A stretch of DNA of 38,070 nucleotides from Rhodovulum sp. MB263 (GTDB taxonomy: Bacteria > Pseudomonadota > Alphaproteobacteria > Rhodobacterales > Rhodobacteraceae). Where the stretch lies: the NCBI RefSeq assembly GCF_002073975.1, contig NZ_CP020384.1, forward strand, positions 3,822,501-3,860,570. The letters are read 5' to 3'. Positions 18,958 to 34,169 of this stretch are shown here, one piece after another. Positions within the stretch are counted from its first letter, which is position 1. Each line of letters opens with the position of its first letter. The position numbers were made by a program, and so were the translations under genes. The notes below the pieces were generated by a model, which made no database searches, had not been told where the DNA came from, and worked only from the letters and a program-made list of their open reading frames with translations.

Positions 18958-19032
<75 letters not shown>

Positions 19033-19037
19033 TAAAA

Positions 19038-20081: not shown

Positions 20082-20245
20082 TCGAAATCCTTCACTGTCT
20101 GTGCTGCGATCCTGAGAAGGCGCCCCCCGACTCGGAAAGCGGGCAGCCTCCCCTCGCGGATCATTGCCCGCACGGTCTCTCCGGAACAGCCCCACCGCTC
20201 GGCCAGCATGTCGGGCGTGTAGGGGCGCTGGGGCTCAGCCATCAT
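19943..20245 (-). CDS. xis: Excisionase-like helix-turn-helix protein
   Basis: A 100-residue protein starting MMAEPQRPYTPDMLAERWGC SGETVRAMIREGRLPAFRVG GRLLRIAAQTVKDFE. This is the winged-helix MerR/Xis-type fold common in excisionase-family DNA-binding proteins (about residues 8-55), followed by a low-complexity Ser/Thr/Arg tail. Xis-type proteins bend attachment-site DNA and steer integrase towards excision. The ATG overlaps the upstream stop by 4 bases. The tail runs 139 bases into the int gene in another frame, so expression of the two is probably linked. Confidence 0.8.
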   Translation of the reverse strand: MMAEPQRPYTPDMLAERWGCSGETVRAMIREGRLPAFRVGGRLLRIAAQTVKDFECGTIESAASRADMSSSGPTTRANVDAIVLRRTRPGRPSGKRATSS

Positions 20246-20667: not shown

Positions 20668-21115
20668 TGACGGCCTCCCACAACCACTTCTGTCCAGTCG
20701 GTGATTTTGCTGGGGCGCGGAGGCGAGACGGGGTTGACCACTCACCCCCGCCAGCCTCACCAATCAGGTGCCAGCCAGCGGCGCGCAGGGATGCGCCGCC
20801 CTCATCCGGAAGGGTGTAAGTCCCGATGCGGCGATATCCGAGCGCGAAGGCGGCGCGGGAAGCTCGCCCGTAGAGAAAAGAGCAGGCATTGCGCGTGCCG
20901 CCTGTGCAAAGTCTGGTGACCTCAAGGGTTACGCCGTCGTCTCGGTGTCGCGCGACGGGGCGGCCGACGATCACGATCCCGACCAACTCGCCAGAAATGG
21001 TGGCTCCAATTGAAAACTTGTGCCCGACGACGGGAGGGTGGTGCCGGTGGTGATGCGCGACAAACGCATTTGCATCGCTTAGCGTCAAAGGGATGGATCG
21101 CAGTTTTTCAGGCAT
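20660..21115 (-). CDS. XF1762-like phage protein (GNAT-like fold)
   Basis: A 151-residue protein with DANAFVAHHHRHHPPVVGHK FSIG, then GELVGIVIVGRPVARHRDDG VTLEVTRLCTGGTRNACSFL YGRASRAAFALGYRRIGTYT and LPDEGGASLRAAGWHLIGEA GGGEW. The pattern HHRHH...P...G.K...G, VGRPVAR and EVTRLCT.G..NACS.LY matches the XF1762 family of small phage/plasmid proteins, which look like acetyltransferases without proven activity. The ATG at 21115 overlaps the methyltransferase stop by 8 bases. It lies directly downstream of the C5 methyltransferase, so a role in DNA modification is possible but unproven. Confidence 0.8.
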   Translation of the reverse strand: MPEKLRSIPLTLSDANAFVAHHHRHHPPVVGHKFSIGATISGELVGIVIVGRPVARHRDDGVTLEVTRLCTGGTRNACSFLYGRASRAAFALGYRRIGTYTLPDEGGASLRAAGWHLIGEAGGGEWSTPSRLRAPAKSPTGQKWLWEAVNA

Positions 21116-23497: not shown

Positions 23498-24298
23498 TCA
23501 GGCCACGCGCAGTTGCAGGATGGGATGGGCGGCGCCGAGGGCGTGTTCGCACCGCTCGAATGCCGTCCGTTCGACCTGTTGCTTGTCGTGGATCTCGAAG
23601 GAGAAGGTCAGGCGCGCTTCATCAATCCGGTATTTCAGCCGAACGGGGATGCGGTCGGGCTCCATCCCTTCGAAGACGGGCACCAGCAGCGTGACACGCT
23701 CGGGAATGGCGACGGCCCCGCGCACCTCGTCCTCGGTCGTGTAGATGAATTGCACCGTACCGTTCTGCAGCTTCTGCGACTGCTTGAAGTTGACCTTCCG
23801 CAGCGCATCGAACTGCATCACCATGTCCATCAGCGTGGCTGGATCCGGCTCGGCCAGGTCGACGGCGCGCTCCTCGAGGAATTCCCCGGCCGCCTTCTGG
23901 CCGATCCATTGGCCGTGTTTCTCGGCCCATGCCTCGTACTGCGGCGACTTGATCGCCCGGAACGCGGCGACGTGTTCGCCCCAGCGCGGCCGGATCGCGG
24001 TCGGTTCACCGCCTTCGTGGTAGTCCAGCACGCATTTGATCGTCGCGGCGTCCGGGTCCGAGAAGGCAAGCGAGTGATCGTCCGCGAAGCGATCCAGATA
24101 GGCGGACAGCGAGGCCACATCGCGGAACGTGGTGCTGCGCCGGATGCGCGCCGGGGCCTCGCGGTAGGCATCGAGGCTTTCGAGGTGCTGCCCGTTCGGG
24201 ATGGCCATGAAGGGCTCGAAGCCGTCGATCTTGTTCGGGACGGCCGCCGCAGCCTCTGCGAGGTGTTTCAGGGCTTCGATTTCGGTGAGATCAGCCAT
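23498..24298 (-). CDS. DUF2303 family phage protein (YfdQ-like)
   Basis: A 266-residue protein with SLSAYLDRFADDHSLAFSDP DAATIKCVLDYHEG, RWGEHVAAFRAIKSPQYEAW AEKHGQWIGQKAAGEFLEER, and a C-terminal beta domain (LLVPVFEGMEPDRIPVRLKY RIDEARLTFSFEIHD). This matches the DUF2303 family, frequent in early regions of temperate phages and in E. coli YfdQ. Its function is not known; the neighbouring genes suggest involvement in early recombination or replication. It overlaps the preceding 106-residue gene by 8 bases. Confidence 0.85.
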   Translation of the reverse strand: MADLTEIEALKHLAEAAAAVPNKIDGFEPFMAIPNGQHLESLDAYREAPARIRRSTTFRDVASLSAYLDRFADDHSLAFSDPDAATIKCVLDYHEGGEPTAIRPRWGEHVAAFRAIKSPQYEAWAEKHGQWIGQKAAGEFLEERAVDLAEPDPATLMDMVMQFDALRKVNFKQSQKLQNGTVQFIYTTEDEVRGAVAIPERVTLLVPVFEGMEPDRIPVRLKYRIDEARLTFSFEIHDKQQVERTAFERCEHALGAAHPILQLRVA

Positions 24299-24611
24299 TG
24301 AAGGCCTCCGCTTTCAGCAGCGATTGCTGGACATAGTTGGGGGCCTCGCGGGTCAGATCGCCGTCGCGGCCCATGAAGAAGAAGGATTGCCCGAACTGCA
24401 GCTGCGGCGCGGTGGCCTTCACCCTGGCGGTCACGGCAAAGCCGGTTTCGCCGTTCGGGTTGACCTCAAGGGTCACGGTTACGGTGCCCTTTTTGCCGGT
24501 CCGGTTGACTGCCGAGATCACCTCGCGCAGCTGCTCGTCGGCAACCTCGATGGCGTGCCCGCCGTCGACCCTGCCGAGTGCCATCAGGAAATGGCTGTTT
24601 CCGTCGCTCAA
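24291..24611 (-). CDS. Conserved phage protein paired with DUF2303 (106 residues)
   Basis: Begins MSDGNSHFLMALGRVDGGHA IEVADEQLREVISAVNRTGK KGTVTVTLEVNPNGETGFAV TARVKATAPQ, a mostly beta protein, then QLQFGQSFFFMGRDGDLTRE and APNYVQQSLLKAEAF. The start is a TTG at 24611, 9 bases after GAGGAG and overlapping the HNH stop (TTGA); no ATG or GTG in frame fits. Similar proteins sit beside DUF2303 in Rhodobacterales phages, by recollection. Function unknown. Confidence 0.75.
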   Translation of the reverse strand: MSDGNSHFLMALGRVDGGHAIEVADEQLREVISAVNRTGKKGTVTVTLEVNPNGETGFAVTARVKATAPQLQFGQSFFFMGRDGDLTREAPNYVQQSLLKAEAFNG

Positions 24612-24964
24612 ATCTTATTCTCCTCTTCCTTGTGGAGCCGGTCCTCGGCCCACGAAATCCAGTCGGTGTCGTTGCCATAGAGCCGCCGCCAGCGGCTCGG
24701 GGCCTGGTGCAGGGCGAGCTTCGAGCCATCGAGCAGGCCCTGGTGGTGGCCCTCGCAGAGCGGGATCGCCATGCAGTCGGGAGCGCGGCGCGTGCTGAAC
24801 CGGCCATGGATGCAGTGATGCGCCTGCGTGGGTGAAAGCTGCGGCAGGCCCCATTCGGCGCAGATGCAGCAGGGCAGCGACCGGATGCGGGCGAGGTGAT
24901 CCGGGTCATCCGGCACACGCGGAGCCTTGAGCCCGAGCGGGCCGCGTGCGGACAGATCGGTCAC
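24608..24964 (-). CDS. HNH / Ref-like zinc nuclease of phage
   Basis: A 118-residue protein with Cys32, Cys33 and Cys35 (LPCCICAEWG), a His pair 49-50 (QAHHCIHG), Cys70 (IPLCEGHH) and a second His pair 73-74. This C..C / HH / C..HH arrangement is that of small HNH-type nucleases of the P1 Ref and DUF968 kind, which nick or cut DNA during recombination. C-terminal part is helical with SRWRRLYGNDTDWISWAEDR. Starts at a GTG at 24964 with a GAGAGGGG ribosome site, overlapping the next stop by 4 bases (GTGA). Exact subfamily uncertain. Confidence 0.75.
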   Translation of the reverse strand: MTDLSARGPLGLKAPRVPDDPDHLARIRSLPCCICAEWGLPQLSPTQAHHCIHGRFSTRRAPDCMAIPLCEGHHQGLLDGSKLALHQAPSRWRRLYGNDTDWISWAEDRLHKEEENKI

Positions 24965-25233
24965 TTCGCCCCCCTCTCTGGTTCATCGAACAAGGGAAGC
25001 CCGGCCTTTTCTGCCTCGCGCGCCGCCTTCGTCATCGGCACGTAACCAAACCTTACGAGGTAATCCCGCCGGGCGGCCTGCCAGGATTTTTCAGCGTGCG
25101 AGGTTATGCTGGCCCAATGGGGCCGCGCCCGGTTCACAGCTGCCTTGCGATCCTTCAGCGGCATGTCAGCCGGAAGATCCTCAGTTGCCTTAGCGATAAT
25201 GATCGCCATACGCTGACGCTCTGTATGCCTCAT
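24961..25233 (-). CDS. Small helical phage protein, unrecognised (90 residues)
   Basis: MRHTERQRMAIIIAKATEDL PADMPLKDRKAAVNRARPHW ASITSHAEKSWQAARRDYLV RFGYVPMTKAAREAEKAGLP is basic and helical, with many Arg/Lys, and may bind nucleic acid. The 4-base overlaps on both sides confirm the frame: ATG at 25233 with the stop of the 137-residue gene, stop at 24961 with the HNH GTG start. No family recognised. Confidence 0.72.
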   Translation of the reverse strand: MRHTERQRMAIIIAKATEDLPADMPLKDRKAAVNRARPHWASITSHAEKSWQAARRDYLVRFGYVPMTKAAREAEKAGLPLFDEPERGAK

Positions 25234-25643
25234 GCCGCGCGCCTCATGGCCCACGGGTCGAAGCCCATCTGCTGGGCGAACCGCATCTGCGCGAGCCGGA
25301 AATAGGCGGCGAACTCGCTCTCCCCCATCCGGTTGAAGGCGGTGGACTGGACGCGGACCTCGTCCCGGCCGGTCAGCGGGTTGTGATATACATCGACATA
25401 GCCGCAGAGGCGCTTGAGGTCGTCGTGCAGATGTCGCGTCGTCGGCCATGCCTCCGCGTTCTCGATGGCGGTGGTCAGCCCCGCCCAATAGGCGGCGTTG
25501 CGCGGGATGGTGCGGCCCTTGCGCGGCTTCGAGGTCAGGACCTGCCCCATGACCAGCTCGTCCAGCATCGGGCCGCTATGCGGGCCGTAGGGCATCAGCC
25601 CGGAGGGCGTCTTCTGGATCAGGATGGCGGGCGGGTTCTGCAT
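25230..25643 (-). CDS. DUF1367-like phage protein (137 residues)
   Basis: Begins MQNPPAILIQKTPSGLMPYG PHSGPMLDELVMGQVLTSKP RKGRTIPRNAAYWAGLTTAI, with GYVDVYHNPLTGRDEVRVQS TAFNRMGESEFAAYFRLAQM near the end. The S-x-x-F-x-[KR]-M-x-x-x-E-F segment recalls DUF1367 (YbcN/NinB neighbours of lambdoid phages), a family thought to help recombination or base-flipping. The likely start is the ATG at 25643, in a TGATG overlap with the upstream stop; a GTG at 25649 would add two residues. DUF1367 assignment is tentative. Confidence 0.65.
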   Translation of the reverse strand: MQNPPAILIQKTPSGLMPYGPHSGPMLDELVMGQVLTSKPRKGRTIPRNAAYWAGLTTAIENAEAWPTTRHLHDDLKRLCGYVDVYHNPLTGRDEVRVQSTAFNRMGESEFAAYFRLAQMRFAQQMGFDPWAMRRAA

Positions 25644-25828
25644 CAGCACGCCCCCAGCCCGACCCAGGAGGCCCGCACGACTTCCGCGATCTCGGCCGCG
25701 GAAAGCGCATGGTCCTCGGCCATTTCCGCGAAGATCATTTCGGGATCGGCGCCCCCGGCAAGCCCGCCTGCAGCGCGCTCGCGGCGTTCATACTCTCGGG
25801 CCAGCTCGGCCAGCGTGTTGCGGGTCAT
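25643..25828 (-). CDS. Small acidic phage protein, unrecognised (61 residues)
   Basis: MTRNTLAELAREYERRERAA GGLAGGADPEMIFAEMAEDH ALSAAEIAEVVRASWVGLGA. It is helical, with an Ala/Glu-rich second half. The start overlaps the 58-residue gene by 4 bases and the stop overlaps the next start, the spacing of a compact phage operon. No domain recognised. Confidence 0.6.
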   Translation of the reverse strand: MTRNTLAELAREYERRERAAGGLAGGADPEMIFAEMAEDHALSAAEIAEVVRASWVGLGAC

Positions 25829-26001
25829 TGGCGGTATTCCTCGGCTCGGCGGATCAGTCGCTCGACGTCAGAGAGGGCCTGGTGGACGGGGTGCATGTCG
25901 AGCAGTCGGCGCATCCTGGACCCCTCGCCCGCGTCCAGCGTGGAGAGGATCGAGGCGCGCAGGTCTTCCAGGGCAGCGGGGAGAGGATCAGCGGCGGCCA
26001 T
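25825..26001 (-). CDS. Small phage protein, unrecognised (58 residues)
   Basis: MAAADPLPAALEDLRASILS TLDAGEGSRMRRLLDMHPVH QALSDVERLIRRAEEYRQ is a mainly helical sequence. It sits between two translationally coupled genes: TGATG with the stop of the coiled-coil gene, and ATGA with the 61-residue gene. No family recognised. Confidence 0.6.
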   Translation of the reverse strand: MAAADPLPAALEDLRASILSTLDAGEGSRMRRLLDMHPVHQALSDVERLIRRAEEYRQ

Positions 26002-26726
26002 CAATACGCCTCCTTCTCTTCCCAGACGCGGACGCCCGCGATCACCCGGTCCTTGTGGTGGCGCCGCACATAGTCCTCGACGAAATCCGTCAGGGCGTCG
26101 CGGTCGTTCTTGGCGATGTCGTTCAGGGCGGCCTTGTGGCTCTCGAACTCGTACCGGGTGACGGTGCGGACCCCTTTCACCCGATCCTTGCCGGCCGCGC
26201 TGGCGGCCTTCTGGGCGGCCTTCGCCTCGGCCTGAGCCTGGGCGGCGGCGCGCTGCGCCTCGATGTCGCCCGCGGCGGCCGTCCGGGTCGCTTCCTCGGC
26301 CTCCCGGCGCTTGCGGTCGGCTTCGGCCCGGGCCTTCCGGGCGGCCTCCTCCTGTTCGGCCTTGAGCCTGACCTTGAAGGCGCTCACCAGAGCGGCGAGC
26401 CCTTTCTTGATCCGGTCGAGGTCTTCCAGCGTCGGTTTCCAGCGCTTGATCTCGGCCTGCCATGCCGCATGGAGCGGCTTCGTTGCCGCGTCCCGGGCCG
26501 TGCTGACGGCCTTCTCGGCCGCCTTGATTTCCTTCGCCAGATCGTCGACCGCCTTCATCTGGGCCGCGGTCGTGACCTGCGTTCCGTCAAGCCAGCCCTC
26601 GGCCTCTGTGATGAAATCGCCATAGGGGGCCAGCGCCTCGTCCAGCGGGTCGGGCGGATTGTTCCCGCCGATCACGGCGCGCGGGTTCGCGCCCTCCTTC
26701 GAGGAGGTCGGGGTCATGTCGTTCAT
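26001..26726 (-). CDS. Phage coiled-coil protein next to ERF (241 residues)
   Basis: Residues 1-30 (MNDMTPTSSKEGANPRAVIG GNNPPDPLDEALAPYGDFIT) are followed by a long charged helix from about 60 to 185 (AKEIKAAEKAVSTARDAATK and KAEQEEAARKARAEADRKRR, with long Ala/Glu/Arg/Lys runs), clearly coiled coil. A folded C-terminus follows (VTRYEFESHKAALNDIAKND RDALTDFVEDYVRRHHKDRV). Proteins of this layout accompany phage annealing proteins (ERF, Bet or RecT). The ATG at 26726 was preferred to one at 26762 because the latter would run into the preceding gene. Possible structural or loading role in recombination; not shown. Confidence 0.7.
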   Translation of the reverse strand: MNDMTPTSSKEGANPRAVIGGNNPPDPLDEALAPYGDFITEAEGWLDGTQVTTAAQMKAVDDLAKEIKAAEKAVSTARDAATKPLHAAWQAEIKRWKPTLEDLDRIKKGLAALVSAFKVRLKAEQEEAARKARAEADRKRREAEEATRTAAAGDIEAQRAAAQAQAEAKAAQKAASAAGKDRVKGVRTVTRYEFESHKAALNDIAKNDRDALTDFVEDYVRRHHKDRVIAGVRVWEEKEAY

Positions 26727-26736
26727 GGGATCTGCC

Positions 26737-27561
26737 TCAATAGGGGATTTCGTCGTCGCCAATGTCGGAGGCGGCGCGCGTCAGGGTCAGCTTCCGGGCG
26801 TCCTTGCTGCGCTCGAGCTCGGAATAGAGGCCGGGCTCGGCCGCCTTGATGTCCTTGAGAACGGCGGTTTCGTGCATCCAGACCGCGCCGAGATCGTCCA
26901 GCGAGGGCGCCCGTTCCAGCGATCTACGGATACGTCCGGCTGCAGCCCGCGGGTCAAACCGTGGGGGCTCGCGATCCTCGGCCGCCCGCCCGGCACCCTG
27001 CGCGTCGTCGTCCTTCGCGGCCGAGAGCCCCAGCGCAAGCTTGAGCGTGTATCGCTGCAGGTAGGTCGCGGCGCTGCCGATGGCCTGATAGGCGTTCTTG
27101 TTGCCGCTCTGGTCGGGCGGGCCGCTGAGGGTCGTTTCCTCGCTGTAGCCGTCGCAATGGGCAACGATGCAGGTCACGGCCAGCCCGCCGCGGTCGCTCT
27201 GCTGGGAGCGGAAGCGATAGGAAAGGCCGTGCTGGGCGAGGATCGGGTCAACCTCGCGCGCAATCGCGTCGAGGGTCTCATAGGAGTAATTGGTCCGGTC
27301 GCCCGACTTCTTGCTCGCGTAATCTACCGTCGAGCCCTTCACGATAGGCTTGATTTCAGCCCGGGCCGCCGAGATCGCGGCGTCGAATGCCTTCCGTGCG
27401 CGCCCGGATTCCCAGCGTTCATGCAGGGCGATCAGCCGCTCGACAGTCTCGATGCTCGCGCCCTTCGCGACGGCCTGCGAAATCATCCCCATGGGGGTGA
27501 TCGCGCCGAAGCTGGCCGGGGTCGCGGCTTCGTCCTGCTGGATCTTCGTCAGCTCGCCCAT
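26737..27561 (-). CDS. ERF family single-strand annealing protein
   Basis: A 274-residue protein. The ERF core is visible from about residue 45: ALHERWESGRARKAFDAAIS AARAEIKPIVKGSTVDYASK, NYSYETLDAIAREVDPILAQ HGLSYRFRSQQ, LAVTCIVAHCDGYSEETTLS GPPDQSGNKNAYQAIGSAAT YLQRYTLKLALGLSAAKDDD AQ. ERF anneals complementary single strands for phage recombination or circularisation (P22 Erf type). A linker rich in Ala/Arg/Asp follows, and the last residues are SDIGDDEIPY, almost the acidic tip of the phage SSB (LDDEIPF). The gene overlaps the 79-residue membrane gene upstream by 13 bases. Confidence 0.92.
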   Translation of the reverse strand: MGELTKIQQDEAATPASFGAITPMGMISQAVAKGASIETVERLIALHERWESGRARKAFDAAISAARAEIKPIVKGSTVDYASKKSGDRTNYSYETLDAIAREVDPILAQHGLSYRFRSQQSDRGGLAVTCIVAHCDGYSEETTLSGPPDQSGNKNAYQAIGSAATYLQRYTLKLALGLSAAKDDDAQGAGRAAEDREPPRFDPRAAAGRIRRSLERAPSLDDLGAVWMHETAVLKDIKAAEPGLYSELERSKDARKLTLTRAASDIGDDEIPY

Positions 27562-27788
27562 TGGCTTACCTCGCTTCCGTGCATGTCGTGGATAACCTGC
27601 CCGATGGCCTTGTCGGCGACGTGGCCGATCAGGCCGATCACGAGCAGGCCAACGGAGGTCCAGGCCAGCCAGCGCGCGGCCCGGGCCGCCTCGCGCAGGA
27701 TCGCCCGGCGGCGGTCGCGGGCCTCGGCCCGGCCCTGCGGCGTGCTGATCGGGTCCAGCGCCTCGGCGGTGCGGAGAGGGCAGGTCAT
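27549..27788 (-). CDS. Small membrane protein of the early-left operon (79 residues)
   Basis: Starts MTCPLRTAEALDPISTPQGR AEARDRRRAILREAARAARW then LAWTSVGLLVIGLIGHVADK. One membrane helix at about residues 40-58 follows a basic cytosolic segment, with a short exterior tail. Start overlaps its upstream neighbour by 4 bases (ATG 27788). Function unknown; small membrane proteins at this position sometimes block superinfection or host functions, which is only a guess here. Confidence 0.62.
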   Translation of the reverse strand: MTCPLRTAEALDPISTPQGRAEARDRRRAILREAARAARWLAWTSVGLLVIGLIGHVADKAIGQVIHDMHGSEVSQWAS

Positions 27789-28021
27789 GCCGCCATCCCC
27801 GCGAGGCGGTCCTCGAGCCCGCGCCACGCTTCGTCCGTGACCTCGGTCATGGCCGGGGTGTTGAAGTCGAGACGGAAGACCCGGGCGGGCCGGTCCTCGT
27901 CAGCAGCGGCGGCGAGCTGGTCCAGCGCGTCGTCCCATGTCGCTGCGGGATCGGGTGCGCCGACGCCGTGGGGGCCGAAGTCGGTCATCACCAGCCAGTG
28001 GAGTCCGCTCAGCGCCAGCAT
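27785..28021 (-). CDS. Small phage protein, unrecognised (78 residues)
   Basis: Starts MLALSGLHWLVMTDFGPHGV GAPDPAATWDDALDQLAAAA, then DEDRPARVFRLDFNTPAMTE VTDEAWRGLEDRLAGMAA. Second gene of the leftward operon. The ATG at 28021 overlaps the stop of the 41-residue gene by one base (TGATG); a GTG one codon earlier is an alternative. Acidic, one domain, no family recognised. Confidence 0.6.
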   Translation of the reverse strand: MLALSGLHWLVMTDFGPHGVGAPDPAATWDDALDQLAAAADEDRPARVFRLDFNTPAMTEVTDEAWRGLEDRLAGMAA

Positions 28022-28146
28022 CACAGCGCCTCCCGCAGGGACGCGAGGAAATGGAAGGCCGCGGCGATCAACCCGAGCTGGGTCCCGGCGATGAACAGCG
28101 CGAGGGCGAGGCCGCGCCAGGTCAGCGGATATTCGGTGTTGCTCAT
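28021..28146 (-). CDS. 41-residue membrane peptide, first gene after PL
   Basis: The translation is MSNTEYPLTWRGLALALFIA GTQLGLIAAAFHFLASLREA L, with one membrane helix (about residues 12-35). It has a strong AAGGGGG ribosome site and is the first product from the predicted PL promoter. Lambda has the antiterminator N at this place. This peptide is not N-like (not Arg-rich), so if the phage uses antitermination the factor must be elsewhere. Confidence 0.6.
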   Translation of the reverse strand: MSNTEYPLTWRGLALALFIAGTQLGLIAAAFHFLASLREAL

Positions 28147-28176
28147 GGGAACCCCCTTGCTGTTGTTGGTAAGGGG

Positions 28177-28205
28177 ACGATATGCGGTAATATTACCGCA
28201 GTCAA
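28177..28205 (-). promoter_or_regulatory. Predicted early-left promoter PL
   Basis: On the minus strand: -35 TTGACT (28205-28200), a spacer of exactly 17 bases, -10 TATCGT (28182-28177). The spacer is the perfect palindrome of operator OL1 (28183-28200) except its first base, so a bound repressor would block RNA polymerase directly. Transcription would start near 28170 and first meet the AAGGGGG ribosome site of the 41-residue gene. Confidence 0.78.
28183..28200. promoter_or_regulatory. Operator OL1
   Basis: TGCGGTAATATTACCGCA is a perfect 18-base palindrome. Near matches occur at 28212, 32511, 32546 and 32569, flanking the repressor gene and the early-left operon, so it is the predicted binding site of the phage repressor and Cro-like protein. 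Confidence 0.85.
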
Positions 28206-28211
28206 GGGACA

Positions 28212-28229
28212 TGCGGTAAAAAAACCGCC
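28212..28229. promoter_or_regulatory. Operator OL2
   Basis: TGCGGTAAAAAAACCGCC keeps the TGCGG...CCGC arms and 18-base spacing of the perfect operator 29 bases away. It lies just upstream of the PL -35 box. Confidence 0.75.
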
Positions 28230-28527
28230 ATCTGGTATGACGCCTGGCTCTGCCTCGCGCTATCCTGCCTCCATCAGGCCCAAGCTGAGGACATGTCAGC
28301 TCGGGCGAACAGAAGGACGCAGAATGCGGAAATAATCTTCTCAGACGCGGACAACTCGGGCTGCCGTCGTGTCCGTCCCGAAGCTACAGGACGTAACTCC
28401 CTCCGGAGTCATATGATGCAGGTTCGCCAAATCAGCCATTCAAACGGGACTGATTACTGGCCACACGGAGTGAAGATTTTTCGTTGGACCGGTTGCGTCT
28501 CGCGCCAAACAGAACGATTCTGAGCAG
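28230..28527. other. Gap between OL and the methyltransferase gene, no clear gene
   Basis: About 300 bases of mixed composition, less GC-rich than the phage operons. Short open frames exist but none has both a ribosome site and protein-like composition. It probably holds the rightward promoter of the adenine methyltransferase gene and one boundary of the inserted cassette. I could not pick out a -35/-10 pair with confidence. Confidence 0.4.
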
Positions 28528-29403
28528 ATGAACGACCAACGCGTCATAGGTTTGAATGAGTACCCCCGTCGGCACGCGCAGGCAGTGGCCTCGCCGTTTC
28601 GCTATCCGGGCGGGAAGGGGTTCCTAACCGGTTTTCTGGCTCAGGAGTGTGTAGTCAAGCTGGCGGGGGTTGGCAGGCGGTACGCGGAGCCGTTCTGCGG
28701 TGGTGCTGGCGCGGCGTTGAACTTGTTGAAGGACGGTACGGTTACCTGCATCGCACTTAACGACTTCGACATACGCATTTACTCGGCATGGACTGCCATT
28801 GTTCGAGAAACTGATCGGTTCGTTGCCCGAATTCGTGAAACTCCCCCGACCGTCGCAGCGTGGCGACGAATGCGCGAGCAGGTTGAAGACGCAGGCCAAG
28901 GCTACAACTTTGACCTCGGGTTCGCGACCTATTTTCTAAACCGAACGAGTACGGCTGGCATTGTCATCGGGTCCGGTCCTATCGGCGGCTTCGAGCAGGC
29001 TGGAAAATGGAAGATCGACGCCCGGTACTACGCAGATAGCATGATCCGGCGCATCGAATGGATCGGCACTCAAAGTGAGCGCATCCAGATTAGCTGCGAA
29101 ACTGCTCACGACTTTCTTGAGCGGGAGGTTTCGGAGGGAAAGGCGAGAGGGACATTTTACTTCGTCGACCCGCCCTACATCGAGGCTGGTTCAAAGCTCT
29201 ACCTCAATGCCATGGACTTGCTGCAGCACCGCTCGCTTGCGCAAATTCTCCGCTCAGGCGTTTTGCCGCATTGGGTGCTGACCTATGATGATGACCCTTA
29301 TGTCCGAACCGTCTACGCGGGATGCGACATCCAGCAGCTTGAAGTGAACTATAGCCTTAGAAAAACCCGAAAGGCGCGCGAGTTGATCATCCGCGCTGCC
29401 TAA
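28528..29403 (+). CDS. D12-class (Dam-like) DNA adenine N6-methyltransferase
   Basis: A 291-residue protein with the D12-class N-terminal motif PFRYPGGKGFLTGFLA (residues 23-38), the SAM-binding RYAEPFCGGAGAAL (about 51-64), NDFD in ALNDFDIRIY (Asp binding the ribose), and the catalytic DPPY at Asp214-Tyr217 (YFVDPPYIEAG). It should methylate adenine N6 in double-stranded DNA; the target is not predictable. It differs from the phage genes around it in lower GC and in orientation, and runs head-on into the nuclease-like gene with a 4-base overlap of their ends. It may protect the phage or host DNA in a restriction-like system. Confidence 0.9.
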   Translation: MNDQRVIGLNEYPRRHAQAVASPFRYPGGKGFLTGFLAQECVVKLAGVGRRYAEPFCGGAGAALNLLKDGTVTCIALNDFDIRIYSAWTAIVRETDRFVARIRETPPTVAAWRRMREQVEDAGQGYNFDLGFATYFLNRTSTAGIVIGSGPIGGFEQAGKWKIDARYYADSMIRRIEWIGTQSERIQISCETAHDFLEREVSEGKARGTFYFVDPPYIEAGSKLYLNAMDLLQHRSLAQILRSGVLPHWVLTYDDDPYVRTVYAGCDIQQLEVNYSLRKTRKARELIIRAA

Positions 29404-30374
29404 AGCGCAAGAACGGCCGCTCGGTATTCCTCGACCCAATGCCGGATAGAGTTGACGTTTTCTGTCTCGTCGAACGTTCGCCCTAGGGCAGCAAGATCAA
29501 TAGCTTTAGCGACTCTCGAGGGAACGGTGAGCCTGTCGAGTATCGCTCCATGTTTAACGTCAAGGTGTTGAGTTTTGGCGCCATCGTTCCGGCGAAATGG
29601 TATAATAGTAGCCATATCTCTATTTGCCGGCCAAGTGCATACATAACCTTGTTGAAAAGGCTCTATGTACTCGCGAACTGATTTGCCCCGCCAATTATTT
29701 CCGCTCGCCAACTGACCAATGATTATTCGGGAGGCCAAGTTTGCTCCATATGGATAATCGGACCAAGCAATGGCATCAATTCCGCCGTCCTTGTCGTCAG
29801 GAGACGCGGCTTCGGTCGGCTGTTCATGTGGCCTGATTGTACTGCCGCGTTCCCATCCTCGACGGAGTGCCTGGATGATCGGCTCGCCTTCGATGCGTGG
29901 CCATCCCACGCTTATGGCCCCTCTCCCTGCCTCCGCAGCTAGCGCCAGCGTTCCTATCGTTTGGAAAACCCGTTTGGTAAACGGGATCTCAAGGCACTTA
30001 AGATCGGGATCCCACCCTCTCACTGCGTTGACGCGAAGAAACGCGCAGATCAGGCAGGCAATGTAGGTGTTTTGCGCCGGCGTTGTTGCGGTGTTGTACT
30101 CGAGCGTATCCCCCGTAGCATCGAGATCAAATGGATAGTGCTCACCGAGGGCCTTCTTTCGGATGCTTACTTCTTCCTCTATTTCGACGGCGCGGCTGTT
30201 CTCATCGACGGCATCATCGACGATATCCTCGTCGGGCTCTTCTTCCTGAAGCTTTTCGTCGTCGATCACGCCGAGTACGGAGGCCCGTCCGTAGGGGTCC
30301 AAGAACGATTCTATCTCAAGATAGTCCACTAGGTCAGCGACGGAAGCTTGCGGCCCTGGTCCATCGTAGCGCAT
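29400..30374 (-). CDS. Probable PD-(D/E)XK-type nuclease, restriction-like
   Basis: A 324-residue protein. Residues 85-175 are helical. From about 195 comes KDGGIDAIAWSDYPYGANLA SRIIIGQLASGNNWRGKS: Asp200 in GGIDAIAW, then Gln221 in IIIGQ and Lys231. A GGxDxxAW strand followed by a second strand with hydrophobic-x-Gln and a downstream W..K fits PD-(D/E)XK nucleases of restriction-endonuclease-like fold with a Gln variant. The N-terminal third is very acidic (EEEPDEDIVDDAVDE at about 45-60). The start is coupled (TGATG) to the stop of the ParB-like gene. No known restriction enzyme was recognised; the fold call is an inference. Confidence 0.6.
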   Translation of the reverse strand: MRYDGPGPQASVADLVDYLEIESFLDPYGRASVLGVIDDEKLQEEEPDEDIVDDAVDENSRAVEIEEEVSIRKKALGEHYPFDLDATGDTLEYNTATTPAQNTYIACLICAFLRVNAVRGWDPDLKCLEIPFTKRVFQTIGTLALAAEAGRGAISVGWPRIEGEPIIQALRRGWERGSTIRPHEQPTEAASPDDKDGGIDAIAWSDYPYGANLASRIIIGQLASGNNWRGKSVREYIEPFQQGYVCTWPANRDMATIIPFRRNDGAKTQHLDVKHGAILDRLTVPSRVAKAIDLAALGRTFDETENVNSIRHWVEEYRAAVLAL

Positions 30375-31513
30375 CAGTCGTCCTCGGACACCGCGAGTGC
30401 CGCCACAAGCGCTCGCGCAGAGGAGCGAACTTCGAGGGCGGTCTCCAAGACATCCTCGTGAATCTTGGCGTCGTAAGACCCCGTGTCCGCAAGAGCCTCT
30501 CGCAAGCCTGCACGCGCTGCATAGACGCCGCGACGGAGAGCTTCCCCCTTGATATCCGCGATGGAATATGCAGCGTCCAAATTCCGATCAGTTTCTAGCG
30601 CGATCGTGGCCTTCTGATTGCCTAGAACTTCTCGCACCCGTTTGAGGTCTTGGGCTTGAGTGCGGATGATCGGATCGACATTCTCCCGGCGATCACCGAA
30701 CAACCACCCTAGAAGGGTCTTTAAGTTTCCATGGTGAGTCGGTGGGATTGGATCTTGGGGCGGATTACCCCGTTCATCCTCCACCTTCAGATCAAGGAAA
30801 TCGGCGAACTGCTGGTAGCTGAGGCCAGTGTATAGATGCGAGAAGCCGAACTTTTTTGATGTCCTATCTTCGACTTCCCAGAGTCCTCGCTCTCGGGCCT
30901 GATCAAGAACTTCGATAGCTAGAACCATACGGCGAAGCGTGTTGTGTCGATCTCCCATGCGCTGTGCGATCTCGCGCAGCGTCAAGCCACCCTCGCCTTT
31001 TGCCCTTTCACGATCGAGCCAAGCGGCAGCGAACCGTGCCTTCGCATAGGCATCCCATGGCCGAGGGCCATTGATATGCTTGAACCCGATGATGTCTTGT
31101 GCGTCCTCGCGCGCAGCAACACGATGAACATTGATCATTTCCAGAGATTGCCGATGTGCCGCGCTCATATCGGGGAGGGCAATGCGGACGTCGGCAGCGA
31201 TCGCCGGATTGCGGAGAGCGAGGACAGCGGCGAGGCGCCGGTTGCCTTCAAGGACTACAAGAGCGCTGTTCTGATACATGGCGATCATCGGCTCAATGCC
31301 GACATACCCGTTTTGAGAGATGGACTGCAGTAGCTCACCTAGCTCAGCTTGTTGGACAAGGTTCCGGATGATGTCTGTAACGTTTCCGCCCAAGGGTTCC
31401 TTGCCAGGTACGAAGCGAGGGTTTTCAGGGTCGAAAGTCAGCCAGTCGACCGGAACGTAGGCCGACGCGCCGACCTCGAGACCTTTGTCTTGCAATTCCA
31501 ACTCAGTAGGCAT
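30374..31513 (-). CDS. ParB-like protein with ParBc and helix-turn-helix domains
   Basis: A 379-residue protein. The N-terminal ParBc-type domain (about 20-130) has the box VVLEGNRRLAAVLAL (Glu89-Arg93), equivalent to the GERR/GxRR nucleotide-binding motif of ParB and sulfiredoxin-like proteins. Residues about 176-205 (LTLREIAQRMGDRHNTLRRM VLAIEVL) form the ParB-type helix-turn-helix. The C-terminal half is helical. It is not beside a parA gene, so a partition role is unlikely; ParBc proteins elsewhere have CTP-binding or nuclease activity. The ATG at 31513 follows an AAAGGGG site. Confidence 0.8.
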   Translation of the reverse strand: MPTELELQDKGLEVGASAYVPVDWLTFDPENPRFVPGKEPLGGNVTDIIRNLVQQAELGELLQSISQNGYVGIEPMIAMYQNSALVVLEGNRRLAAVLALRNPAIAADVRIALPDMSAAHRQSLEMINVHRVAAREDAQDIIGFKHINGPRPWDAYAKARFAAAWLDRERAKGEGGLTLREIAQRMGDRHNTLRRMVLAIEVLDQARERGLWEVEDRTSKKFGFSHLYTGLSYQQFADFLDLKVEDERGNPPQDPIPPTHHGNLKTLLGWLFGDRRENVDPIIRTQAQDLKRVREVLGNQKATIALETDRNLDAAYSIADIKGEALRRGVYAARAGLREALADTGSYDAKIHEDVLETALEVRSSARALVAALAVSEDD

Positions 31514-31526
31514 TTTTGTATCCCCT

Positions 31527-31709
31527 TTATCCGCAGTTCCCCATACTCGACCAAGGCGATCCCGTCAGCATCTTTCGCCAAGCTCTTGCCGCGGCATAGC
31601 AAACCCAAAATTGCGAACGCCCGACATCTGCACGTTGGTGTCGCTCGTGCCACATGCGGCGAATTTCTGGAGGAAAATCGATGTAACGCCTGTCTCCGGT
31701 GTAGCGCAT
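31527..31709 (-). CDS. Possible 60-residue protein ahead of the ParB-like gene
   Basis: Translation: MRYTGDRRYIDFPPEIRRMW HERHQRADVGRSQFWVCYAA ARAWRKMLTGSPWSSMGNCG. It is rich in Trp, Tyr, Phe and Arg and ends 13 bases before the ParB-like start; its TAA lies in the ribosome site of that gene. It might be a coupled leader peptide or a small component of the cassette. Evidence is only position, composition and a weak GAAGAG ribosome site, and no homology is recognised. The remaining stretch to 31857 shows no other gene. Confidence 0.35.
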   Translation of the reverse strand: MRYTGDRRYIDFPPEIRRMWHERHQRADVGRSQFWVCYAAARAWRKMLTGSPWSSMGNCG

Positions 31710-31857
31710 GGAAACTCTTCGCAGTCTGGGCTCGCCGCTTCGAACCCGTGGTTAAGGTCTAGTTCCCGCCCGACAGGCGACCAAGGCGCTTGCTGCGCGT
31801 CGCTTCCGCTCGTCTTGGCCGCAGCAAAGGGCCGCTTTCTGCCTATGTGTGCAACGC

Positions 31858-32511
31858 TTACACCCTGCGCGCCAGCTCCGCCGGCCAATGGAGCTTGATC
31901 GGTGCCGCCCACTTGAGCCGGACCCCGTACATCACTGGGGTTTGGTCGTTGAAGCTGTGCAGGTCGAACAGCCCAGGCTCGCGACCCTGGCGAACAACCT
32001 TCACCCAGCCCAGCCCCTCTTCGCACTCGCAAACGCACCGCTTGCCAACTGCCTCGCTGGGCACGCTTCCGTCCGACCAACGGGTGTAGAACAGCAGATC
32101 CCCTGCCGAATAGACCGGCTCCATGCTGTCACCCTCGATCTCAACCGCGACAATGTTGTGCGGGGATAGCCCAGGTGGGCATTCGACCTGGGGGCCGTCG
32201 CCCTTCTCGTAGGTGTCGAAGACCGGCACGCGCGCCCCGGCGCCGACCTTGCCAGCGATGGCAATGGTCGGCGTGTCCGGCCCGTCCCCAATCCCATGGA
32301 TAAGCCACGTCTCGGAAACACCAAGAGCACGCGCGACACCCGCAAGCGCCGATATGGTGGCTCCTGCTGCATCTTCCCCTTTTTCAAGGCGGCGCCGCCA
32401 GTTGCGTATCCCGTCGCGCGACAAGCCGGCCTGAAGGGACAGCGCACCTTCAGATATGCCGAGTCTCTCTCGGTGTTGCGTTATGCGATCAAGGATATCT
32501 TGCAGGGCCAT
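31858..32511 (-). CDS. Phage repressor, LexA/CI-like with S24 peptidase domain
   Basis: A 217-residue protein. The N-terminal helix-turn-helix (about 16-40: ISEGALSLQAGLSRDGIRNW RRRLEKG) is followed by a linker with the self-cleavage dipeptide Ala91-Gly92 (KVGAGARV), then the S24 domain with nucleophile Ser129 (VEIEGDSMEPVYSAGDLLFY) and general base Lys171 (GLGWVKVVRQG). It should bind the palindromes TGCGGTAATATNACCGCA and be cut by activated RecA, causing SOS induction. The ATG at 32511 has no ribosome site and lies within operator OR3; a longer frame would run through the operators. Low GC and lack of a ribosome site suggest a leaderless message. Confidence 0.9.
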   Translation of the reverse strand: MALQDILDRITQHRERLGISEGALSLQAGLSRDGIRNWRRRLEKGEDAAGATISALAGVARALGVSETWLIHGIGDGPDTPTIAIAGKVGAGARVPVFDTYEKGDGPQVECPPGLSPHNIVAVEIEGDSMEPVYSAGDLLFYTRWSDGSVPSEAVGKRCVCECEEGLGWVKVVRQGREPGLFDLHSFNDQTPVMYGVRLKWAAPIKLHWPAELARRV

Positions 32512-32528
32512 GCGGTTATTCTGCCGCA
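32511..32528. promoter_or_regulatory. Operator OR3, overlapping the repressor start
   Basis: TGCGGTTATTCTGCCGCA has the TGCGG/CCGCA arms with the same 18-base spacing, less conserved in the centre than OR1. Its first base is the last base of the repressor start codon complement, so binding would shut off the repressor's own transcription or translation at high concentration. Confidence 0.65.
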
Positions 32529-32545
32529 CGCTTTGGCGTTGAGTT

Positions 32546-32563
32546 AGCGGTAAGATAACCGTT
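32546..32563. promoter_or_regulatory. Operator OR2
   Basis: AGCGGTAAGATAACCGTT keeps the GCGGTAA/ACCG arms of the operator consensus with the same length, and overlaps the -35 region of the predicted rightward promoter at 32562. Confidence 0.75.
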
Positions 32564-32590
32564 GACGATGCGGTAATATAACCGCATAAG
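32562..32590 (+). promoter_or_regulatory. Predicted early-right promoter PR
   Basis: TTGACG (32562-32567) is followed by a 17-base spacer and CATAAG (32585-32590). Transcription would start about 7 bases on, close to the ATG of the Cro-like gene (32597), which has no ribosome site; the message is probably leaderless. Operator OR1 (32569-32586) fills the spacer, mirroring PL/OL1. Confidence 0.65.
32569..32586. promoter_or_regulatory. Operator OR1
   Basis: TGCGGTAATATAACCGCA differs from the perfect OL1 palindrome at one base. Located within the predicted PR spacer just ahead of the Cro-like gene. Confidence 0.82.
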
Positions 32591-32596
32591 TCAGTC

Positions 32597-32836
32597 ATGC
32601 AAACCATCGAACATCTTCTTCGGCTGGCCGATGCCTACAAGCAGGCTGCAGGAGTCGCGGAGGACACTACGGTATCCTACCGGGTCTTTGGCGACACCAA
32701 GAAACTTGCCGCATTGAGGGCGGGGGGCGACATCACAACGCGTCGTTTCAATGCTGCGGTCGCTTGGTTCAAGAACAACTGGCCGAACACAGCCGATGCG
32801 CACCCCGTGCCGCAAATTTCCGGGGACGCGGCCTGA
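32597..32836 (+). CDS. Cro-like DNA-binding protein
   Basis: A 79-residue protein: MQTIEHLLRLADAYKQAAGV AEDTTVSYRVFGDTKKLAAL RAGGDITTRRFNAAVAWFKN NWPNTADAHPV. VSYRVFGDTKKLAALRAG and DITTRRFNAAVAWFKNNWP look like a helix-turn-helix in small phage regulators of this group. It is the first rightward gene after OR and opposite the repressor, the Cro position, and lacks a ribosome site so may be leaderless. It should compete for the same operators. Confidence 0.75.
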   Translation: MQTIEHLLRLADAYKQAAGVAEDTTVSYRVFGDTKKLAALRAGGDITTRRFNAAVAWFKNNWPNTADAHPVPQISGDAA

Positions 32837-33473: not shown

Positions 33474-33664
33474 GCAACAGCATCCATGTCAGCGTGAGAG
33501 ACGGCCGAGCCCACATCGACCTGCCTCTTGAAGAAGCCCACGGGCTGCGCGTGGCGATGCGCCCGCGGCTGGCGGGCGAGGTCGAGAGCAACTCCACAAA
33601 GGCGATCCGCGAGGCTTTCGACAAGGCCCTCGCCCGGGCACAGATCAGGGCGGGCCGGGTATGA
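33470..33664 (+). CDS. Small phage protein, unrecognised (64 residues)
   Basis: Translation: MSNSIHVSVRDGRAHIDLPL EEAHGLRVAMRPRLAGEVES NSTKAIREAFDKALARAQIR. Beta strands followed by a helix. ATG overlaps the 28-residue frame's stop by 4 bases, and its own stop overlaps a 15-codon frame by 4 bases. No family recognised. Confidence 0.6.
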   Translation: MSNSIHVSVRDGRAHIDLPLEEAHGLRVAMRPRLAGEVESNSTKAIREAFDKALARAQIRAGRV

Positions 33665-33708
33665 GCCTGCACCGCCACGAGCATTTCAGACAGGAGGTGT
33701 CCAGATGA
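33661..33708 (+). CDS. Possible 15-codon coupling peptide
   Basis: ATG at 33661 inside the previous stop region, MSLHRHEHFRQEVSR, ending in TGA that overlaps the nuclease ATG at 33705 by one codon. It contains the GGAGGTG ribosome site of the next gene. Probably a translational relay rather than a functional peptide. Confidence 0.25.
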   Translation: MSLHRHEHFRQEVSR

Positions 33709-34169
33709 AGGACCGATCCGCCATCGGCCGGCGCAACCGCGCCAAGGGGGCCGAACTCGAGCGCGAGGTCGCCGCGGCCCTGTTCGACCTGACCGGCATC
33801 GCGTTCCGCCGCAACCTGCGCCAGTGCCAGGAATCCGGCTGGAGCGATCTGGTGACGGACGATCCGGCCTGGCCGTTCTCGATCGAGTGCAAGCGCCGAT
33901 CCGCAGGGACCGGCTGCGCTGACGACTGGCGCGCGCAGGCGGCTGCCAGCGCCCGGAAGGCCGGGCAGCTGCCCGTGGTGGTCTATCGCTTCGACCGCCG
34001 CCCGATCCGCTGCGCCTTGCCGCTGGGCGCGATCCGCGCGGCCTTCGGCGACAGGGGCGCAGCACCACCCGAGGAATGGGTCGAGTGCAGCCTGGACGGG
34101 CTCGCCTATCTCGCCCGCGAAATCATGGCCGGGCCGGGCGCCGCCGGGATCGAAGGGGCCGCGCCATGA
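33705..34169 (+). CDS. PD-(D/E)XK nuclease, Holliday-junction-resolvase-like
   Basis: A 154-residue protein: MKDRSAIGRRNRAKGAELER EVAAALFDLTGIAFRRNLRQ CQESGWSDLVTDDPAWPFSI ECKRRSAGTG. Pattern KGAELEREVAAAL...RRNLRQ...G.SDL and FSIECKR (Glu-Cys-Lys) is the core of PD-(D/E)XK nucleases such as Hjc or phage resolvase-like enzymes (Glu18 region, Asp58, Glu71, Lys73). Expected to resolve branched DNA made by replication/recombination. ATG follows a GGAGGTG site; stop overlaps the O-like gene by 4 bases. Confidence 0.82.
   Translation: MKDRSAIGRRNRAKGAELEREVAAALFDLTGIAFRRNLRQCQESGWSDLVTDDPAWPFSIECKRRSAGTGCADDWRAQAAASARKAGQLPVVVYRFDRRPIRCALPLGAIRAAFGDRGAAPPEEWVECSLDGLAYLAREIMAGPGAAGIEGAAP

Follow-up and report, generated by a model that had tools for sequence, protein, structure and literature searches.

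Gene organization of the prophage locus

The window, a 38,070-nucleotide stretch of the Rhodovulum sp. MB263 genome, contains a three-gene cassette at positions 28528-31513, where a D12-class adenine methyltransferase gene converges with a gene pair that encodes a ParB-like protein and a 324-residue partner (Table 1). The trio is located between the left operator-like sites and the CI-like repressor gene of a prophage. The first-pass annotation of this DNA had placed the same three ORFs and had described a methyltransferase converging on a coupled minus-strand pair. Both points hold: the 3' ends of the partner and methyltransferase genes overlap by 4 bases, and base 30374 is common to the stop of the ParB-like gene and the start of the partner gene. 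The lower-GC block that it reported is also evident, with a GC content of 0.52-0.60 across 28250-31999 versus 0.63-0.73 in 24000-28249; rightward, the value is 0.58-0.73. A 60-residue ORF is found in 31514-31709, the remainder of the range assigned by that annotation.

Table 1. Positions of the genes, motifs and operator-like sites in the window
Feature	Position	Strand	Basis
D12-class DNA adenine methyltransferase, 291 aa, PD-Lambda-5_B family	28528..29403	+	Pfam PF02086, PADLOC
324-aa probable PD-(D/Q)xK nuclease, PHROG 14650 (unknown function)	29400..30374	-	PHROG, fold match
Catalytic-like region of the 324-aa partner, D196/D200...Q221...W228..K231	29682..29789	-	residue conservation
379-aa ParB-like protein: ParB/Srx N-terminal domain, HTH, helical C-terminal part	30374..31513	-	PHROG, profile, fold
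ParB box II-like motif EGNRR, residues 89-93	31235..31249	-	alignment; equation with box II by eye
Probable helix-turn-helix of the ParB-like protein, residues 179-208	30890..30979	-	model helices; by eye
Left operator-like sites (two; starts 28184, 28213)	28184..28228		read-off consensus
Right operator-like sites (three; starts 32512, 32547, 32570)	32512..32585		read-off consensus
CI-like repressor, S24 peptidase family	31858..32607	-	Pfam PF00717 1.6e-06; PHROG 4 transcriptional repressor 1e-19

The repressor gene precedes the pair and shares its strand. The pair thus lies between a repressor and a left operator and reads in the direction of the repressor, as do the rexAB genes of lambda, which we take to be the appropriate positional comparison. 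The rexAB-like position claimed earlier is thus correct. The operator pattern has 11 matches with at most one mismatch in the window versus a shuffle mean of 1.1, a count that is descriptive because the pattern was taken from the same sites and palindromes were counted on both strands. A promoter-like match at 28205-28177 on the minus strand, one of three promoter-like sites versus 2.0 expected, overlaps the first left operator-like site.

The ParB-like protein and its nuclease-like partner

The ParB-like protein matches PHROG 3694 (1.9e-69). It has no Pfam match at 0.1, and the NCBIfam model parB_part reaches only 0.015, under the model cut-off. Its kinship to ParB is supported by the family profile, which matches Spo0J (4umk, 5.4e-05), and by the predicted structure (pLDDT 93.5), whose fold matches include KorB (8.1e-05), ParB, Noc and Spo0J. 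The EGNRR motif is invariant in all 90 rows of the family alignment. With a ParB N-terminal fold and a GNRR/GERR-type motif, the protein belongs to the ParB/Srx superfamily. The helix-turn-helix was assigned by eye from model helices 179-186 and 190-208, and HTH-type Pfam models match a few family members. The first-pass reading of a ParB-like protein with an EGNRR box and a helix-turn-helix is thus upheld, the latter by eye. NTP binding should not be assumed for this protein, because 17 of 28 ParB-fold proteins tested bound none, according to the cited part of a survey (PMC12704722).

The 324-residue partner matches PHROG 14650 (1.3e-24). None of 95 proteins of its family matches Pfam at 0.01, and the known PADLOC nuclease families yield four models that match one of the 95 rows each (0.004-0.01). 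The best PDB fold match of the predicted structure (pLDDT 93.1, pTM 0.92) is the nuclease MspJI (4f0p; probability 0.95, marginal E 5.3e-3, TM-scores 0.20-0.26), which the cited section of PMC12707154 gives as a PD-QxK enzyme; no match reaches 0.001 in the viral fold search. Among 155 aligned rows, D200 is conserved in 154, Q221 in 152 and K231 in 142. The lysine has migrated within the family: it occupies Q+2, as in canonical QxK, in 10 rows and W+3 in most members, and it is found at neither position in two of 152 rows; alanine replaces the glutamine in one row. The MspJI match and the lysine migration suggest that the partner is probably a nuclease-like protein of the PD-(D/Q)xK type; the first-pass annotation had supposed a PD-(D/E)XK nuclease. 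The partner family shares its conserved D..Q..K sequence pattern with MspJI/Mrr-type endonucleases but differs from them in its W+3 lysine, in its place beside a methyltransferase and in that no SRA domain is seen (no Pfam match).

Recurrence of the trio and exchange of the methyltransferase

The plus-strand gene, rightly recognized as a D12-class adenine methyltransferase in the first pass, matches Pfam PF02086 (2.9e-09) and the PADLOC model PD-Lambda-5_B (1.8e-81 over residues 20-289). Do the three genes also occur together elsewhere? Among 160 loci retrieved with the ParB-like family alone, the partner family is adjacent to the ParB-like gene (gap of -160 to +150 bases) in 148. A DNA methyltransferase is encoded within 150 bp in 135 loci and within 3 kb in 141. 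These counts favor completeness because each cluster was represented by its best-preserved member. The conserved neighborhood that the first-pass annotation proposed to look for therefore exists, and its recurrence in most loci found with ParB alone places the trio beyond chance. A methyltransferase beside a probable nuclease, the arrangement of Type II restriction-modification, is thus the common state. Long flanks accompany the pair in 94 loci; there, 90 methyltransferase ORFs are located no more than 150 bp from the pair versus 16 elsewhere (about 10.9 kb of flank per locus). Nine of the 160 loci, none of them truncated shortly downstream, have no detected methyltransferase. Four of these nine (L101, L106, L121 and L166) keep the pair with D200 and Q221 intact, and two have methyltransferase remnants. 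In seven loci, ParB occurs without the partner despite the contig continuing.

The methyltransferases beside the pair belong to three unrelated classes: D12 (adenine-N6), C5-cytosine and N4/N6-beta. Classes were called by HMMs from 27 aligned neighbors (24 D12, 2 C5 and 1 N6_N4), four of which were excluded from the D12 seed; since the seeds came from the same loci, the classes sought are not independent, and the places of the methyltransferases are. On a quick ParB tree with long branches, the class changes 12 times with all labels, including methyltransferases more than 150 bp away (L083, L104, L108 and L164 among the tree rows) and PD-Lambda-5_A loci, and 10 times with strict labels, which are restricted to methyltransferases no more than 150 bp away in loci that have no PD-Lambda-5_A. 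Thus, one of three methyltransferase classes is kept beside a fixed pair of a ParB-fold protein and a nuclease-like protein, and the class has been exchanged repeatedly.

The pair itself varies as a unit. Over 8140 locus pairs, the identities of ParB and partner move together (r 0.905), and no locus pair has one of them at 75% or more and the other below 45%. Phages Wphi and 12474III carry methyltransferases that are 98% identical beside ParB proteins at 32% and partners at 24%. The DNA recognition of the pair shows no sign of tracking that of the methyltransferase in indirect comparisons, made by segment identity. When 78 diverged ParB pairs with C5 methyltransferases at least 80% identical were set against 165 pairs below 55%, with no significance test, no ParB segment was more than 3 points more alike in the 78 pairs, and the helix-turn-helix segments were 4-6 points less alike; the largest gain in the partner was 7 points (residues 226-255), likewise with no significance test. 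ParB gains were at most 4 points in the D12 group, a weak contrast given methyltransferase identities from 39% up versus up to 32%. Many segments were more alike in the N-beta group, but those pairs were more alike overall (39 versus 35%). Co-evolving DNA specificity was therefore not seen in the ParB proteins of the C5 group.

Relation to known systems and proposed function

No PADLOC system is matched in full by the trio, as the first-pass annotation had expected, and its further view that a ParB-like partner is not known from a named system must be corrected: both PD-Lambda-5_A and the PADLOC candidate PDC-M38A have a ParB-like N-terminal domain. PD-lambda-5 (Vassallo et al. 2022, PMC9519451, in the part cited) is the closest named system, with the methyltransferase family and the ParB domain in common but not the probable nuclease. 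The methyltransferase in the window belongs to the PD-Lambda-5_B family, and the N-terminal part of the ParB-like protein is homologous to PD-Lambda-5_A (hhalign probability 99.8 over 223 columns, using ten A-like proteins that match the PADLOC models). However, most A models are 428-592 positions long, and the match here is confined to the ParB-like N-terminal part; the best match covers residues 25-162 of 379, and all 23 A matches listed end at or before residue 190. The partner family is unrelated to A-like proteins (hhalign probability 0.2), and the methyltransferase beside the pair may also be C5 or N4/N6-beta. The window contains no PD-Lambda-5_A-like ORF; 16 of the 160 loci also carry such a gene. 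PDC-M38A, whose N-terminal half matches the ParB-like family (e.g. 3.3e-31), is a single protein of 715 positions; in four full-length examples, the partner profile has no match and the three methyltransferase classes are absent within about 1.5 kb on each side. With a partner match in neither, the idea that PD-Lambda-5_A or PDC-M38A is a fusion of ParB and partner was rejected. GmrSD, SspE and DndI join a ParB/Srx-like domain to a nuclease in phage defense, according to the cited parts of PMC12839542 and PMC11662687, and GmrSD_N matches three of 90 ParB rows at 0.01. In contrast to these HNH systems, the ParB-like protein is separate here, its partner is PD-QxK-like and a methyltransferase is added. 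Phage Wphi has the same convergent layout (gp98, gp96 and Mth) with homologous ParB and partner but a C5-cytosine methyltransferase, and its record gives gp98 and gp96 no function. In the open-licence PMC literature searched, no paper was recognized as describing the trio, and no cleavage or defense assay of the pair was found.

What is the biological function of the trio? We propose, with a probability of roughly 0.65, that it is an undescribed three-gene, restriction-modification-like defense (superinfection exclusion) module carried as lysogenic cargo, in which both cutting and defense are our inference. The methyltransferase would mark the DNA of the lysogen. The ParB-like protein would load on DNA via its helix-turn-helix, perhaps with a nucleotide switch in view of the conserved GNRR box, and would bring or activate the PD-QxK nuclease, which would then cut unmarked DNA. 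The pair is apparently indifferent to the chemistry of the mark, given that enzymes of all three classes stand beside it. A defense role is favored by the kinship to PD-lambda-5, which affected all but one of ten phages tested, and by the P2-type portal gene within 2.5 kb of 38 of the 160 loci, a neighborhood known as a defense hotspot (both in the cited parts of PMC9519451). A more specific mechanism is offered tentatively, as somewhat doubtful: a ParB-type nucleotide-switched DNA clamp, rather than a translocase or a sequence-specific nuclease, may search the DNA and deliver the PD-QxK nuclease, with self told by a plugged-in methyltransferase of any of the three classes. The restriction half would diversify or be exchanged as one unit while the methyltransferase stays nearly fixed, so that recognition would be conveyed by some route other than the classical co-specificity of restriction and modification.

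It is unlikely that the pair attacks modified DNA in a Type IV-like manner, as MspJI does, with the methyltransferase as part of an abortive or signaling step and not of self-protection. The closest fold is the modification-dependent MspJI, one of 95 partner proteins marginally matches the PADLOC methyl-directed REase model (0.0098), recognition does not visibly track the methyltransferase, and the cited part of PMC9519451 calls PD-lambda-5 a compacted RM+Abi system. However, a modification-dependent nuclease whose neighbor is an active methyltransferase would turn against the host itself, and three classes beside one pair family would not be easily tolerated by a reader of a single methyl group. 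It is quite improbable that selfish addiction, or maintenance of the element, is the main role of the trio in place of antiphage defense. Restriction-modification-like units can stabilize their carriers, and viral contigs often carry relatives (of 158 found, 80 were kept), but the hotspot and the kinship to PD-lambda-5 favor defense, and pairs without a methyltransferase exist. Addiction and defense are not mutually exclusive.

A takeover or anti-restriction role in lytic growth, in which the methyltransferase shields phage DNA and the pair degrades host DNA, has a precedent in phage KL3, for whose methylase/endonuclease genes the cited part of PMC3091744 proposes a lytic-cycle role. It is highly improbable here: the pair is read in the direction of the repressor within the immunity region, and relatives also occur in bacterial contigs, which may include prophages, of 15 named phyla. 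Although the ParB fold might suggest partition or replication, with the methyltransferase as an unrelated neighbor, this is scarcely plausible, as methyltransferases and the partner are the closely linked genes and a ParA-type Walker motif occurs in only one of 160 loci (regular expression on ORFs of at least 150 residues). A partition role of the ParABS type was therefore rejected.

As a defense module, the trio would connect restriction with the ParB nucleotide-switch fold and would point to a role for two genes of the classical phage Wphi. It would offer a natural experiment, three methyltransferase classes serving one cutting machine, and a testable answer to what divergent orphan ParB folds do, the role of many of which was left open in the cited part of a 2025 survey (PMC12704722). 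The trio is distributed across many bacteria and phages, yet Pfam has no family for its nuclease-like protein. The 80 genome loci span 15 named phyla by record title, and many are metagenome bins. Of 5426 complete E. coli genomes, 139 match the Wphi cassette or its methyltransferase; the E. coli records listed name the products of the pair a ParB-domain protein and a hypothetical protein.

The cassette and its prophage

The cassette consists of a D12 (adenine-N6) methyltransferase gene and, on the opposite strand, a pair of genes that encode a ParB-like protein and its partner. The stop codon of the ParB-like gene and the start codon of the partner gene have one base in common, and the partner and methyltransferase genes overlap by four bases. 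As the first-pass annotation had stated, the cassette forms a lower-GC block (GC content down to 0.52-0.60) and occupies the position of rexAB in lambda, between two left operator-like sites and an S24-type repressor, which is accompanied by three right operator-like sites.

The prophage appears to be complete and to span both contig ends. The integrase gene adjoins tRNA-Thr, the end of which recurs as a 47-base copy (98%) near the contig start, and Erf and exonuclease genes are present. The window ends with the 3,860,570-base contig, and the contig's first 17 kb contain terminase, portal, protease, major head, tape measure and tail fibre genes. Should the contig be circular, the prophage would measure ~44.7 kb.

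Coordinates of features in the window, on the same contig counted from its start (C1) and at related loci (L labels)
Feature	Sequence	Position	Strand	Basis or remark
Left operator-like sites	window	28184, 28213		two sites flanking the cassette
D12 methyltransferase	window	28528-29403	+	ORF call; PF02086; PADLOC PD-Lambda-5_B 1.8e-81
Partner, 324 aa	window	29400-30374	-	ORF call; two PHROGs, both unknown function
ParB-like protein, 379 aa	window	30374-31513	-	ORF call; PHROG 3694
Integrase beside tRNA-Thr	window	18958-20195
Larger second phage DNA methyltransferase, same prophage	window	21108-23102	-	PHROG 116, 5.6e-95
Small phage endonuclease-like protein	window	33528-34169	+	Pfam PDDEXK_15, 3.3e-13
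Copy of tRNA-Thr end	C1	25532-25578
Methyltransferase remnant	L106	8665-8889		beside intact-looking pair
Methyltransferase remnant	L121	7008-7148		beside intact-looking pair
Split Microvirga partner gene	L006	5956-6931		two overlapping ORFs near transposase-like ORFs

Association of the three genes

Relatives were fetched with the ParB-like alignment (best 80 of 158 from viral contigs, best 80 of at least 491 from genome contigs), and the analysis covered each of these 160 loci. The three genes, originally proposed as a cassette from the window alone, form a conserved neighbourhood: the partner is found in 149 loci and adjacent in 148, and 141 loci have a methyltransferase within 3 kb, 135 of them within 150 bp. 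Ten of the 19 loci without a methyltransferase end at a contig border close downstream. Because some viral and genome loci are seemingly the same DNA (e.g. L011/L097), the loci were clustered at 80% ParB identity; the partner occurs in 101 of the 108 clusters, a methyltransferase in 96 and PD-Lambda-5_A, a part of the defence system PD-lambda-5, in 9. At the 94 loci with long flanks, 90 methyltransferase ORFs lie within 150 bp of the pair and 16 elsewhere. In the window's family the partner profile matches 7 of 198 genomes, and in the window's phylum 6 of 398, each count including the window's own genome and one weak or fragmentary match.

The partner is missing from 11 loci, four of which (L030, L043, L112 and L155) break off at the contig end. 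The contig continues in L124, L131, L141, L142 and L159, which have close ParB-like relatives with neither partner nor methyltransferase detected, and in L162 and L163, where a D12-type methyltransferase lies 1.1 kb from the ParB-like gene; L162 retains the partner as a weak trace only. The methyltransferase remnants at L106 and L121 would be unexpected if methyltransferase loss were lethal. L006, with its split partner gene, keeps a D12-type methyltransferase and has no ParB match.

A P2-type portal gene lies within 2.5 kb in 38 of the 160 loci (30 with C5-cytosine methyltransferases, 7 with D12 and 1 without a detected methyltransferase), and these loci occur in two orientations. PMC9519451 describes a defence hotspot, occupied mostly by hypothetical genes, between the replication endonuclease and portal genes. 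The C5-type cassette of phage Wphi, or its methyltransferase, was matched in 139 of 5426 complete E. coli genomes; at least 80% of the cassette is covered in 103, with 103 places at ≥99% identity, and the other 36 match at 90-95%, the four of them listed all through the methyltransferase alone. In one matching genome that was inspected, genes for a ParB-domain protein, a hypothetical protein and the methyltransferase stand next to the portal gene; their lengths are those of the trio of phage 12474III, also of C5 type.

ParB fold and the conserved site of the partner

The ParB-like protein adopts a ParB fold. Its family profile matches ParB of known structure (4umk, 5.4e-05), and its model (pLDDT 93.5) matches KorB (8qa9, 8.1e-05), ParB, Noc and Spo0J in a fold search. 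All 90 alignment rows carry the EGNRR box unchanged. Pfam ParB_N matches 18 of these rows at 0.01, the window's own protein not being among them; a survey of ParB folds that used ParB_N with its cut-off (PMC12704722) thus probably missed most of the family. Since 17 of 28 ParB-fold proteins assayed there bound no NTP, NTP binding should not be assumed here.

None of 95 partner family members matches Pfam at 0.01, four PADLOC models each match one member (0.004-0.01), and a PDB sequence search gave nothing better than 0.35. The first-pass annotation had suggested a nuclease fold, which structure prediction and fold search support but do not settle. The model is confident (pLDDT 93.1, pTM 0.92), and the best Foldseek PDB match, MspJI, is marginal (E 5.3e-3, probability 0.95), missing the 0.001 line; viral matches are weaker (best 0.035) and include restriction-endonuclease and Mrr entries. 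The MspJI site is given as PD-QxK in PMC12707154. The partner alignment (155 rows of ≥200 aa from 157 genes, the window and its copy L008 both included) contains a conserved site: D196 and D200 are each kept in 154 rows, Q221 in 152 and K231 in 142. Among the 152 Q rows, 140 have K231 without a lysine at Q+2, 9 have the reverse, 1 has both and 2 have neither. This pattern looks like a migrating catalytic lysine, and the shift was probably a single event because the Q+2 rows present on the ParB tree cluster in one part of it, so that a Fisher test over the rows is not a valid measure of significance here.

PD-lambda-5 and the exchangeable methyltransferases

No entry in PADLOC, Pfam or NCBIfam matched the complete trio, and the open-licence PMC literature searched yielded no recognised description. 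By sequence comparison, PD-lambda-5 is the nearest known system. The window methyltransferase belongs to the PD-Lambda-5_B family, and the N-terminal part of the ParB-like protein is related to PD-Lambda-5_A (hhalign 99.8 over 223 columns), whereas the C-terminal part of PD-Lambda-5_A is unrelated to the partner. The window trio is not classed as PD-lambda-5 because the window has no A protein. At 16 of the 160 loci the trio occurs together with a PD-Lambda-5_A-like gene, giving four gene kinds with D12 (L132, L133, L135, L136, L143-L145, L147, L155, where the partner is cut off, and seven others); the pair and PD-Lambda-5_A may thus be sibling restriction halves able to share a methyltransferase. 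PMC9519451 terms PD-lambda-5 a compacted RM+Abi system and reports broad protection.

We rate the trio as a putative methylation-coupled, R-M-like defence system, a sibling to PD-lambda-5 that has a real chance of embodying a new principle. We infer that methylation would be the mark of self, that the ParB-like protein would find or clamp DNA, perhaps through a nucleotide switch, and that the putative PD-QxK nuclease would cut unmarked DNA.

The methyltransferase is exchangeable. Its classes number 66 D12, 46 C5, 29 N4/N6-beta and 19 none. The ParB tree (90 rows, 87 labelled) needs 12 class changes against a minimum of 2, with 9 D12 changes forced by well-supported branches and C5 forming one clade; strict labels (methyltransferase within 150 bp, no PD-Lambda-5_A at the locus; 77 rows) give 10 changes, 7 forced for D12. 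ParB and partner identities covary (r 0.905, 144 loci). Wphi and 12474III share 97.8% identity in the methyltransferase, 31.9% in ParB and 24.0% in the partner (the 40 most extreme such pairs are all C5, many redundant), and L148 and L156 are 76% (ParB) and 67% (partner) identical, yet differ in methyltransferase class. These contrasts argue that pair and methyltransferase are exchanged or evolve separately.

The simplest R-M reading, a shared and co-evolving site, predicts that near-identical methyltransferases accompany some more similar ParB segment. In a descriptive comparison of C5 loci (78 versus 165 pairs), the gain of any ParB segment is at most 3 points and the HTH segments are 4-6 points less alike; this missing covariation would count against that reading. 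The largest partner gain in the same descriptive comparison is 7 points, at residues 226-255.
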